From the NCBI GenBank assembly GCA_019750455.1, contig JAIEOM010000033.1, positions 1-41,254 of the forward strand: a DNA stretch of 41,254 nucleotides. Direction: 5' to 3'. The notes below the pieces were generated by a model. It worked only from the letters and a program-made list of their open reading frames with translations, was not told the DNA's origin and did not search any database. The DNA comes from Sphingomonadales bacterium (GTDB lineage: Bacteria > Pseudomonadota > Alphaproteobacteria > Sphingomonadales > Sphingomonadaceae). Below are positions 19,245 through 22,561 of the stretch, one piece after another (within the stretch, counting starts at the first letter, position 1; each line of letters opens with the position of its first letter). The position numbers and the translations under genes are program-made.

Positions 19245-21617
19245 TCACCCCTCGATCCGGCTGAAATCGGCCACACGGTGGACCGCATCACGGAACCGCG
19301 CCAGCAGTGCAAGGCGCGCGGCGCGCTTGTGGGCCTCCTCGGCGTTAACAGTCACCTCTTCAAAGAACCTGTCGATGGGCGCGCGCAAGGTGGCGAGCGC
19401 GGCCATCGCATCGGCGAACTGTTCGGCCTCCACCGCAGCGGCGGCGCGCGGGGCAGCGGCATCGAGTGCGTCGATCAGCGCCTTTTCGGCGGGTTCGGGC
19501 GTGTAGGAAAGTTCTGCATTGCCGCGCGCCTCGGCGGCGAGAATGTCCCCCACATCGGGATCGTCGACCATCGCCAGCGGGTCTTCCTCGCCGGTGTCGG
19601 GGATGGTGTCGTTGCCCTGCTTGAGGCTGGCGAGCACCTGCGGATCGGGCGTGCCGGTCGGGCCTTCGTAGCCCTCCTTTTTGAGGATGTTCGCCGCGCG
19701 CTTGTAGCCCGCGAGGAGATTGGTGCCGTCCTCGGTGCCGACGAAGGCTTGCAGCGCATGGACGCGGGCGAGCAGGCGGACGAGATCGTCCTCGCCCCCA
19801 AGCGCGAAGACCGCGTCAATCAGGTCGTGGCGGACACCGGCTTCGCGCTGCTGGACTTTGAGGCGGTCGGCGAAGAAGGCGAGCAACTCTATGCCGATTT
19901 GCTCAATCTCGAAGGCTACCTGATCGGCATAGTTCTTTGAAAGCGGCATATTTTCAGATGCGGCGATCCCGAAGGAAGCCTCACCCAACTCCGCAAGTCG
20001 TGACTTAATTTGCGGATTCTGATCAACAATCAGCTTTGCCGCGAAGTCAAAACACTTGAAAAGGCTCAACCTCAATCCGTTCTGCTGGATCGAGGCAAGA
20101 TTGCCCAGCGCGGCACGGCGAAGAGCAAAGGGATCCTTTGAACCAGTCGGCTTCTCGTCAATAACGAAGAAACCGACCAGCGTATCCAGCTTGTCCGCCA
20201 GCGATACCGCCACCGTCACCGGCGCCGTGGGCACATCATCGCCCTGCCCGACCGGCTTATAGTGATCGCGGATCGCCTCGGCGACCTCCTGCGGCAGACC
20301 TTCCTTCGCGGCGTAGTAGCCGCCCATCAGGCCCTGCAATTCGGGGAATTCGCCGACCATCTCGGTGACGAGATCGGCCTTGGCGAGGCGCGCGGCCTGT
20401 TCAGCGAGGTCGGCGAGCTGTTCGTTCGTCATCCCAGCGGAAGCTGGGATCGTTTTCGATTTGGCGCTCTGGGCGAGAGCGGTCCCAGCTTTCGCTGGGA
20501 CGACGATATTTTCCTCGCACAGCCAGCGCGCCAGCTTCGCCACGCGTTCGACCTTGTCGGCCACCGTCCCGAGCTTCTCGTGGAAGGTAATGCGCGACAG
20601 TTTCTCGGCGTGAACCGCGAGGGGGGTCTTCTGGTCCTGCTCCCAGAAGAAGCGCGCGTCGGAGAGGCGCGCGGCGAGGACCTTGCGGTTGCCGTCGACC
20701 ACCACGCTCGCGTCGCGCGGTTCGATGTTCGCGGTGCAGACGAAGGCGTTGGCGAGCTTGCCCGCGCTGTCCTCGCACACGAAATACTTCTGGTTCACCC
20801 GAGCGGTGAGCTGGATCACCTCGGGCGGCACGTCGAGGAAGGCTTCGTCGAAGCTGCCCAGAAGCGGCACCGGCCATTCGGTCAGCCCGGCGTTCTCGAT
20901 CACGAGGCCTTCATCGGCAACCAGCGTGAGCCCGGCTTCGGCAGCGGCCCTGGCCGCGCCTTCGCGGATGAGGGCGCAGCGTTCCGAAAAGTGGACGATC
21001 ACATGCGCGGCGCGCAGGGTTTCGACATAGGCTCCGGCGTCCGCGATCTCGACCGGGCCGGAGTGGTGGAATCGGTGCCCCATCGTCGTGCGCCCGCTGA
21101 CGATCCCGTCAACCTCGCAAGGCACAACCGCCCCATCGAGCAGCGCAATAATGCCGGACAGCGGGCGCACCCAGCGTAAGGACTCGGTGGTGATGGAACC
21201 CGCGCCCCAGCGCATCGACTTGGGCCAGGGGAAGGTGCGGACCACCGCCGGGATGGTTTCCGCGAGCACATCGGCGGTCGCCCGGCCCGGCTTTTCGACC
21301 ACGGCAAAATAGGCGCCGTCGCGCTCGACTAGCTGATCGGCGGCGAGGCCGACCTTGCGCAGGAACCCTTCGAGCGCCTGAGGGGGCGCGCCGACCTTCG
21401 GGCCCTTGGTCTCCTCGCTCACTGCCTCGGTCGCCAAGGGCAGGCCCTTGGCGATCAGCGCGAGGCGTCGGGGCGTGGCGAAGGCTTCGACGGTCTCTGC
21501 CGTCAACCCAGCCTTGGCCAGCGCATCGGTGAACAGCCGCGCCAGATCCTCCTTGGCCTTGGGCTGCATCCGTGCGGGGATTTCCTCGCAGCGCAGTTCG
21601 AGCAGGAAGTCGGCCAT
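19245..21617 (-). CDS. glyS: Glycyl-tRNA synthetase beta subunit
   Basis: A 790-residue subunit of the alpha2beta2 glycyl-tRNA synthetase; the N-terminus FLLELRCEEIPARMQPKAK and the later AARLAKADLVTEMVGEFPELQGLMG are diagnostic. It carries tRNA recognition, with the HD-like and anticodon-binding regions in the C-terminal half. Residues 371-398 are an insertion not expected in the family. They are encoded by an inverted palindromic repeat at 20427-20505 and read VVPAKAGTALAQSAKSKT and on to PASAGMTN. The insertion falls between two helices of the domain and keeps the frame. The start ATG overlaps the glyQ stop by one base (TGATG), so glyQ-glyS is a coupled operon. The frame is open to 21653. 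Confidence 0.97.
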   Translation of the reverse strand: MADFLLELRCEEIPARMQPKAKEDLARLFTDALAKAGLTAETVEAFATPRRLALIAKGLPLATEAVSEETKGPKVGAPPQALEGFLRKVGLAADQLVERDGAYFAVVEKPGRATADVLAETIPAVVRTFPWPKSMRWGAGSITTESLRWVRPLSGIIALLDGAVVPCEVDGIVSGRTTMGHRFHHSGPVEIADAGAYVETLRAAHVIVHFSERCALIREGAARAAAEAGLTLVADEGLVIENAGLTEWPVPLLGSFDEAFLDVPPEVIQLTARVNQKYFVCEDSAGKLANAFVCTANIEPRDASVVVDGNRKVLAARLSDARFFWEQDQKTPLAVHAEKLSRITFHEKLGTVADKVERVAKLARWLCEENIVVPAKAGTALAQSAKSKTIPASAGMTNEQLADLAEQAARLAKADLVTEMVGEFPELQGLMGGYYAAKEGLPQEVAEAIRDHYKPVGQGDDVPTAPVTVAVSLADKLDTLVGFFVIDEKPTGSKDPFALRRAALGNLASIQQNGLRLSLFKCFDFAAKLIVDQNPQIKSRLAELGEASFGIAASENMPLSKNYADQVAFEIEQIGIELLAFFADRLKVQQREAGVRHDLIDAVFALGGEDDLVRLLARVHALQAFVGTEDGTNLLAGYKRAANILKKEGYEGPTGTPDPQVLASLKQGNDTIPDTGEEDPLAMVDDPDVGDILAAEARGNAELSYTPEPAEKALIDALDAAAPRAAAAVEAEQFADAMAALATLRAPIDRFFEEVTVNAEEAHKRAARLALLARFRDAVHRVADFSRIEG
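20427..20505. repeat. Palindromic repeat doublet (REPIN/RPE-like) inside glyS
   Basis: Two copies of a 26-bp unit face each other, at 20427-20452 and (reversed) at 20480-20505, identical at 23 of 26 positions, with a 27-bp loop. Each unit is itself a palindrome with the core TCCCAGC-GGA-AGCTGGGA in the left copy and TCCCAGC-GAA-AGCTGGGA in the right copy. This is the structure of a REP doublet. Similar palindromes are scattered in sphingomonad genomes, and the protein-coding insertions recall the Rickettsia palindromic elements. I found no second copy in the window. Confidence 0.8.
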
Positions 21618-22561
21618 CAGACGAGACTCCACCCGGGGTATTTGGCCTGCCATTCGGGCGCCATCTTCTCGGCATAGGCCTCGCAGCTAGAGCGCGCGAG
21701 ATCGCGGACACGGCCCATGTAGCTGGCGCGTTCCTGCACGCTGATCACGCCGCGCGCCTGGAGCAGGTTGAAGACGTGGCTCGCCTCGACTGCCTGTTCG
21801 TAAGCCGCGATGGGCACGCCCGCCGACAGAGCGTTGCGGCACTCGGCCTCGGCCTTGGCGAAGAGGTCGAAGAGGGCATCGGTGTTCGCGACCTCGAAGT
21901 TCCACTTGGACATCTGGCGCTCGTTCTCGAGGAATACCTCGCCATATGTCACGCCCGCAGAGTTGAACGCCAGGTCATAGACGTTGTCGACGCCCTGAAT
22001 ATACATCGCGAGGCGTTCCAGCCCATAGGTCAGTTCGCCCGCGACCGGCTTACAATCGAAGCCGCCCATCTGCTGGAAATAGGTGAACTGGGTGACTTCC
22101 ATCCCGTCACACCACACTTCCCAGCCCAGCCCCCACGCGCCGAGCGTCGGGCTTTCCCAGTCGTCCTCCACAAAGCGGATGTCGTGCGCTAGCGGATCGA
22201 TGCCGATCGCTGCGAGGCTCTTGAGGTAGAGCTCCTGGATGTCCGAGGGCGAGGGCTTCAGGATCACCTGATACTGGTAATAGTGCTGGAGCCGGTTGGG
22301 GTTCTCGCCATAGCGTCCGTCGGTCGGGCGGCGGCAGGGCTGGACGAAAGCGGCGTTCCACGGCTCGGGCCCGAGAGCGCGCAGCGTCGTCGCGGTGTGG
22401 AACGTGCCCGCGCCCATGCGCATGTCATAGGGCTGGAGAATCACACAGCCAGCCTCGGCACTCCAGAAGTCGTGGAGCGTCAGGATCATGTCCTGAAACG
22501 AGCGCGCCGGATCGCGTGCCAAAGACCTTGGAGGGGGCGTAAAAAGGGGCTGAGCACTCAT
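21617..22561 (-). CDS. glyQ: Glycyl-tRNA synthetase alpha subunit
   Basis: A 314-residue class II catalytic subunit. The family segments are complete: [19 protein letters not shown] near the N-terminus, [56 protein letters not shown] and [13 protein letters not shown], which form the glycyl-adenylate site. The likely start is the ATG at 22561; the frame is open to 22591 and a later ATG at residue 25 would still leave the full domain. The N-terminal 20 residues ([12 protein letters not shown]) have no counterpart in E. coli GlyQ. It is the first gene of the glyQ-glyS operon; its promoter lies in the 200-bp region shared with urcA. Confidence 0.96.

Follow-up and report, generated by a model that had tools for sequence, protein, structure and literature searches.

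A CGTC-type palindromic dimer in frame within glyS of a sphingomonad, in a loop that appears to be recurrently colonised by repeat DNA

The DNA analysed here, referred to as the window, is a stretch of 41,254 nucleotides (positions 1 to 41,254 of contig JAIEOM010000033.1, assembly GCA_019750455.1) from a Sphingomonadales bacterium. It carries glyS, the gene for the beta chain of glycyl-tRNA synthetase (GlyRS), and inside that gene, in frame, a dimer of short palindromes of the kind termed CGTC repetitive extragenic palindromes (REPs). The features concerned are as follows.

19245-21653, minus strand: glyS, encoding GlyRS beta, 802 codons from the first ATG, open throughout
20427-20505: 79-bp dimer of CGTC-tagged palindromes (REPs), tags outward (HH in the terms of PMC3733652), encoding glyS residues 384-409 (26 codons) on the minus strand
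20427-20451, plus strand: unit 1, with the CGTC tag at 20427-20430, an 8-bp stem at 20431-20438 / 20443-20450 and the 4-nt loop GGAA
20452-20480: spacer separating units 1 and 2, with no in-frame stop in the glyS frame
20481-20505, minus strand: unit 2, inverted, with the CGTC tag at 20505-20502, an 8-bp stem and the 4-nt loop GAAA

The original prediction, made from the sequence, was of a palindromic doublet at 20427-20505 within glyS, and the doublet is real: the 26-bp spans 20427-20452 (plus strand) and 20480-20505 (minus strand) show three differences, 23 of 26 positions being alike. Unit 1 departs from the pattern CGTCATCCCAGCGAAAGCTGGGATC at one position and unit 2 at two. The stem, loop and stem of unit 1 read ATCCCAGC/GGAA/GCTGGGAT, and those of unit 2 GTCCCAGC/GAAA/GCTGGGAC, with a G-C pair at the first stem position. 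An inverted-repeat search returned arms of 33 nt at 20426-20458 and 20474-20506 that are 85% complementary. The genome to which the window belongs (G000; 3.06 Mb in 289 contigs) contains 14 matches to the unit pattern at up to three mismatches, the two glyS units among them, while a reversed control gives none.

The frame is kept and the protein is complete, as had been proposed: the product of the open reading frame (ORF) runs uninterrupted for 802 residues and is identified as GlyRS beta by PF02092 (E 5.9e-186), with DALR_1 also found in Pfam and a phmmer match to E. coli GlyRS beta (7yse, E 2.8e-95). Judging from the open frame, the residues encoded by the dimer are probably translated. An AlphaFold2 model of this protein has a mean predicted local distance difference test (pLDDT) score of 90.7 and, in model numbering (ORF numbers minus 13), predicts a helix at 351-367, coil at 368-396 and a second helix at 397-410. 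The insert is thus modelled as coil between two helices, the place proposed for it, with block means of pLDDT of 79, 62 and 92 across model residues 371-400; the second helix is predicted to start at ORF residue 410. The insertion site aligns with E. coli GlyRS beta residues 378-386, which would place it near the start of the HD domain. The HD-domain tRNA contacts of the E. coli enzyme given in the accessible part of PMC9908026 are residues 439, 473-482 and 531, and the site lies away from these in sequence.

Of the 114 genomes that GTDB assigns to this genus, 109 gave a glyS match; 103 genes, including that of the window, were compared, six fragmentary matches being left out. The addition of 80 named records, less four duplicates (L161, L162, L163, L169), gave a full set of 179 GlyS proteins. 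Loop length was measured as the number of residues between the conserved anchors L378 and A420. Among the 103 proteins of the genus it is 15-23 residues in 64, 27 in three and 41-64 in 36, the window having 43. Relatives without the insert therefore exist, as do 12 unit matches in the genome besides the two in glyS, and the ordinary loop that the original prediction had set against its own reading is contradicted on both counts. That prediction had also put some 28 residues at 371-398. The insert itself stands, but the ORF residues are 384-409, and the earlier numbers fit a start 12 codons downstream. Nor is it a simple addition: the loop is indeed longer, but set against short alleles its sequence has been replaced, 43 residues standing between the anchors where short alleles mostly have 17-18, and the GDP-type residues that precede the second helix in short alleles are absent from the window allele.

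Inserts of at least 17 residues occupy the site in 61 of the 179 proteins, 36 belonging to the genus and 25 to other sphingomonads, and the loop is short in all 23 non-sphingomonad outgroup rows. An inverted-repeat score of at least 12 was obtained for 50 of the 61 inserts, against four of 610 sequences made by shuffling their codons. When the genes were scanned over their whole length, 78 long inverted repeats were located in 58 of the 179 glyS genes, with two or three in 18 genes. Codons 390-409 account for 45 of these repeats, codons 660-699 for 15, codons around 290-299 for seven and codons 550-579 for two; six lie at or before the start and three elsewhere. At codons 290-299 and 660-699, other species carry palindromic inserts of more than one family (for example L022, L031, L070 and L076), and L022 has three palindromic inserts within a single glyS. 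The region of codons 538-590 was considered as a second dock and rejected: it is long by length (at least 17 residues in 132 rows) but palindromic in just four of the 132. Insertions of 20-33 residues at codons 182 (L043), 196 (L120) and 620 (L053) are no more palindromic than their shuffles. One TGA occurs within the aligned glyS stretch of each of G092, G105 and G054, which may reflect a pseudogene, an assembly error or an overrun of the alignment. Among short loops, a LASEGIVPNCD-like type (for example L065, L081, L131, L175) and the type LVFDAK-PNGD (L082, L147, L157) recur in different genera, a pattern suggestive of local recombination within the gene.

The occupants of the site are not of one kind, a point that goes beyond the original prediction: in other species several dissimilar palindrome families are found there. 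Single linkage of BLAST matches at 1e-6 yields nine clusters, five with at least two members, comprising 30 CGTC-type inserts, two C-rich clusters of 13 and 7, two GTTCG clusters of 5 and 2, and four singletons. The number of clusters depends on the cut-off, being seven at 1e-4, nine at 1e-6, 11 at 1e-8 and 14 at 1e-10. Thirteen family labels were assigned by hand, more finely than the BLAST clustering demands, T1-T5 denoting C-rich and S1 and S2 GTTCG palindromes. As the paired C-rich and GTTCG clusters have short motifs in common, the cautious reading is of three broad types: CGTC, GTTCG and C-rich. Two palindromes are abundant across the genus, with up to 71 matches per genome to CGTTCGYCCTGAGCYTGTCGAAGGRC (two mismatches) and up to 64 to CCCCTCCCGCTTGCGGGAGGGG (one mismatch). 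Ten consensus palindrome units were free of stops in four to six of the six frames.

Occupation of the site follows the repeat load of the genome. Load was taken as the total number of copies of four palindrome patterns and was compared across the 97 genus genomes of clear state, the six genus rows labelled x_other, with odd or intermediate loops, being omitted. At 0-5 copies the site is occupied in 3 of 33 genomes, at 6-25 in 6 of 21, at 26-60 in 12 of 23 and above 60 in 15 of 20 (p=3.7e-8); the relation persists (p=5.9e-6) when six copies are subtracted from each occupied genome to allow for those in glyS itself. Four families were tested for an excess in the genomes whose glyS they occupy. 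With two of their own copies taken off, three are clearly commoner there than in all other genomes (R1, p=9.2e-5, nine genomes; T1, p=0.0056, three genomes; T4, p=0.0078, two genomes). Compared only with genomes occupied by other families, R1 (p=0.0068) and T1 (p=0.029) retain an excess.

Within the genus, long alleles are spread across the GlyS tree about as widely as shuffled labels would be. In an IQ-TREE phylogeny of 98 genus rows with the insert columns removed, presence or absence of the insert changes 25 times, at least 14 changes being forced by starred branches; shuffled labels average 26.6, and as few changes occurred in 155 of 500 shuffles of the short label and 132 of 500 of the long. 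Such changes are switches between presence and absence, in which gains and losses are not separable. All 15 labels placed on a FastTree phylogeny of the 179 rows give 67 changes; shuffled labels average 68.9 and needed no more than 67 in 20 of 200 shuffles. Nine rows, six of them in the genus, carry the x_other label and were left out of the IQ-TREE count as well as the load test. The partial or split genes L034, L044, L056 and L058 were omitted from the IQ-TREE analysis and from the flank tests described below, as was L121, a 702-residue ORF whose omission was unnecessary.

In our judgement the feature is likely to be a CGTC-REP dimer: a mobile palindrome, dispersed and probably non-autonomous, that lies in frame in a permissive loop of GlyRS beta. 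In sphingomonads this loop would have been colonised repeatedly by the palindromic families of the host genome. Recurrent colonisation is suggested because occupation is scattered on the gene tree and rises with repeat load. Dimers would be copied into glyS by some activity; copies that keep the frame within the flexible coil would be near neutral and survive, and other copies would be purged because glyS is essential. Later dimers may then replace earlier ones at the site. The resulting peptide would be a passive loop instead of a functional gain.

In-frame units are also found beyond glyS. Two unrelated proteins of the window's own genome contain them: a nitrite/sulfite reductase (G000:C95:1-1674, L202), in which a CGTC dimer has replaced the native loop, and a DNA polymerase III alpha-type protein with a PHP domain (G000:C273 near 33162, L018), whose units are of CGTC type. 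The reductase loop is short in 10 of 11 aligned homologues from the genus; the eleventh, from G111 (L203), has a longer loop with a CGTC-type pair recognisable by eye, although its inverted-repeat score of 11.5 is under 12. A long ORF over one further copy (L013) was taken from its composition to be antisense and was not counted. When the 76-bp dimer in glyS of another species (G017) was searched against 11 chosen genomes, near copies were found in ileS, valS and uvrA. It is 99% identical to the ileS dimers of G038 and G008 and 95% identical to the glyS dimer of G038. The in-frame copies in other species are listed here.

ileS (L224, L227, L239, L285, L295, L290): palindromic dimer of this type, in frame
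valS (L238, L280): palindromic dimer of this type, in frame
uvrA (L240): related 76-bp dimer, in frame

The identity of IleRS, ValRS and UvrA was established by phmmer on one fragment each, and for the remaining copies resemblance of the flanking sequence decided between IleRS, ValRS and GlyRS. The uvrA copy indicates that the wider family is not restricted to synthetases.

Fifty CGTC dimers were recognised, by pattern-fitting only and partly chosen for lying in glyS. The 22 intragenic ones all lack CTAG, are 76, 79 or 82 bp long and are read in the frame V-x-P-A in 20 cases and in another in two; the other 28 include 26 with CTAG and 27 that are 81-83 bp long. A marker unit for the 76-bp form, sought in all 114 genomes without restriction to particular genes, gave 51 copies in 28 genomes. 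Seventeen of these lie within 76-bp dimers, every one of which is read in a single frame (V-x-P-A ... G-M-T) in one of three tRNA synthetase genes: five at the GlyRS site occupied in the window, four in the GlyRS 664 linker, six in IleRS and two in ValRS. A coding test caught 15 of the 17, L282 and L290 being recognised from their translation. The remaining 34 copies appear non-intragenic and 23 have CTAG; a looser coding test flagged six of the 34, which by eye, with no database check, lie outside conserved proteins. The window's genome contains no copy of the 76-bp marker unit, its own dimer being a 79-bp relative of the 76-bp type in the same frame. Dimers in different synthetases of one genome have a mean similarity of 0.94 (six pairs), against 0.88 for the same site in different genomes (32 pairs; p=0.02, the pairs being non-independent), and this greater likeness within genomes suggests recent spread from gene to gene, by transposition or gene conversion. 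It is conceivable, if rather less than an even bet, that two things hold jointly: that a coding-specialised branch of sphingomonad CGTC-REP dimers, lacking the stop-bearing CTAG spacer found in intergenic sister dimers and having a fixed length of 76 bp and one frame, is copied among GlyRS (two sites), IleRS and ValRS as a mobile module of 25 residues, and that the GlyRS loop is a revolving dock where successive dissimilar families overwrite each other.

Several observations weigh against repeated colonisation. The load tests do not separate the kinship of genomes from their load, and the excess of the resident family is weak for S2 compared with all other genomes (p=0.060, five genomes) and, compared with genomes occupied by other families, weak for both T4 (p=0.082) and S2 (p=0.30). 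The short-loop label is clustered over the 179 rows, which include the 23 short outgroup rows, as it changes 46 times on the FastTree phylogeny (at least 26 forced; the nine x_other rows scored as not short) against a shuffled mean of 55.5, with none of 500 shuffles as low. When near relatives that have or lack the insert were inspected by eye, no target-site duplication could be recognised. A Y1-type transposase (PF01797), the only transposase family searched for, is absent from the window's genome; it is present in 5 of 14 control genomes and in just 7 of the 114 of the genus. Mobilisation by RAYT transposases was accordingly set aside as unsupported. Further points concern the flank. Leu-Ala stands just before the residue aligned with D415 in all 61 long alleles, whichever palindrome they carry, and in the genus this Leu is TTG in 16 of 36 long alleles, against a background of 12% (p=1.4e-6). 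Long alleles also resemble one another more closely in the codons adjacent to the site than would be expected from the remainder of glyS. The shared Leu-Ala and the TTG excess point to common descent of the flank, or strong selection, rather than a fresh insertion each time: either a single old flank is common to the long alleles, with nothing but the palindromes being exchanged, or the helix turn is strongly selected.

The first of these options would amount to a single ancestral insertion in early sphingomonads, the long allele having spread by homologous recombination with its palindromic content exchanged in place, as in a revolving dock, and short alleles having been retained or re-imported. 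We regard this as a serious contender that nonetheless falls short of an even chance. Besides the Leu-Ala and the TTG excess, it is favoured by the flank similarity of long alleles within about 15 codons, by an upstream LVESD that accompanies eight inserts (seven R1, one R5) of scattered genus rows and occurs in no short allele, and by the recurrence of distinct short-allele types. Transfer of alleles between species, as tested by flank similarity, nevertheless leaves a short-range signal that is weak on synonymous sites alone (p=0.006 and 0.088); selection may act on the Leu-Ala as the opening turn of the second helix, predicted from ORF residue 410; the best match of one glyS dimer is to ileS of other genomes, not to their glyS; and occupation tracks the repeat load of each genome. 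That the palindromes are kept because the peptide or an mRNA hairpin alters the activity, assembly or expression of GlyRS is improbable. Such an adaptive insert would agree with the confinement of the 76-bp subtype to three tRNA synthetase genes in one frame, and the accessible text of PMC3733652 speculates on a function of REPs in repair genes; but the content of the site is dissimilar between species, near relatives do without it, the coil is modelled with lower confidence than its surroundings, and in-frame units occur in the two unrelated proteins of the window's genome described above. An ordinary variable loop with accidental symmetry has next to no probability left: loop length does vary in many proteins, and the inserts at codons 182, 196 and 620 are palindromic no further than shuffles, yet the 14 genomic copies against none in the control and the shuffle comparison rule it out here. 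Equally negligible is an assembly artefact, for which the fragmentation of this repeat-rich draft might speak, as open-frame inserts are also found in genomes of the same genus assembled in one or two contigs (G033, G039, G045 and G095). Recurrent colonisation of the loop thus remains the explanation that we favour.

Rickettsia palindromic elements were reportedly described by Ogata in 2000 and 2002 as lying in frame within unrelated genes. The accessible part of PMC10969869 likewise presents them as in-frame palindromes in unrelated genes, and the analogy drawn in the original prediction has a published basis in PMC3733652 (Di Nocera, De Gregorio and Rocco 2013), where, in the text available, RPE-6 and RPE-4 are CGTC elements and CGTC-1 is equated with RPE-6. 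By description, no RPE sequence having been compared, the window's dimer resembles these elements in its in-frame insertion into a glyS that stays open over 802 codons; it differs in that the hosts are sphingomonads, as the original prediction had correctly guessed for the window, the dimers are shorter and several families occupy one protein site.

According to the same text of PMC3733652, a CGTC-1 REP has a CGTC (or TGTC or CCTC) tag, an 8-bp stem whose first two pairs are almost invariably A-T, and a 4-nt loop; CGTC REPs form mostly HH dimers, are dispersed without a dedicated transposase and have intragenic copies that encode 20-30 residues. In-frame REPs are reported there in tRNA synthetases of E. 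litoralis (spelled E. lithoralis) and S. alaskensis, as are REPs at about one recB site in two Xanthomonas species. The window's dimer agrees in its unpaired CGTC tag, 8-bp stem, 4-nt loop, HH arrangement, dispersed copies and lack of PF01797 in the genome; the bases after its stems are CCA in neither unit, CCA being the short unpaired tail of most, not all, members. Taken alone, the feature belongs to this already described type. GTAG REPs, or REPINs, also form short dimers of inverted units, whose mobilisation is attributed to RAYT transposases acting in trans (PMC3733652, same portion), but the tag in the window is CGTC instead of GTAG and its genome has no PF01797 match. The C-rich (T1-T5) and GTTCG (S1, S2) palindromes are likewise inverted dimers at the glyS site of other species, and S2, T1 and T4 were counted as dispersed in genus genomes; no family name for these palindromes, or for CGTTCGYCCTGAGCYTGTCGAAGGRC and CCCCTCCCGCTTGCGGGAGGGG, was found in the literature searched, as far as its text was accessible. 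What the available text of PMC3733652 does not report is several dissimilar families at one site across an order, a relation to load, or a coding-only subtype; nor was any report of the multi-family dock, load dependence or coding-only subtype found beyond it in the literature searched, outside which most subscription journals fall, and glyS may be in the gene list of PMC3733652.

Evidence that selfish palindromes can make protein sequence has so far come largely from Rickettsia. The glyS case brings in sphingomonads, an essential enzyme and a single homologous codon position, and the insert is present or absent across dozens of species. Nature here provides replicates in which three matters can be compared: the route from mobile DNA to coding sequence, the properties that make a loop permissive, and the movement of such elements where no transposase is known. 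Should the 76-bp subtype prove to be restricted to tRNA synthetases, it would be a mobile element adapted to proteins, and this restriction would call for an explanation. The GlyRS loop, for its part, looks like a docking place at which repeat DNA is turned into protein-coding sequence.

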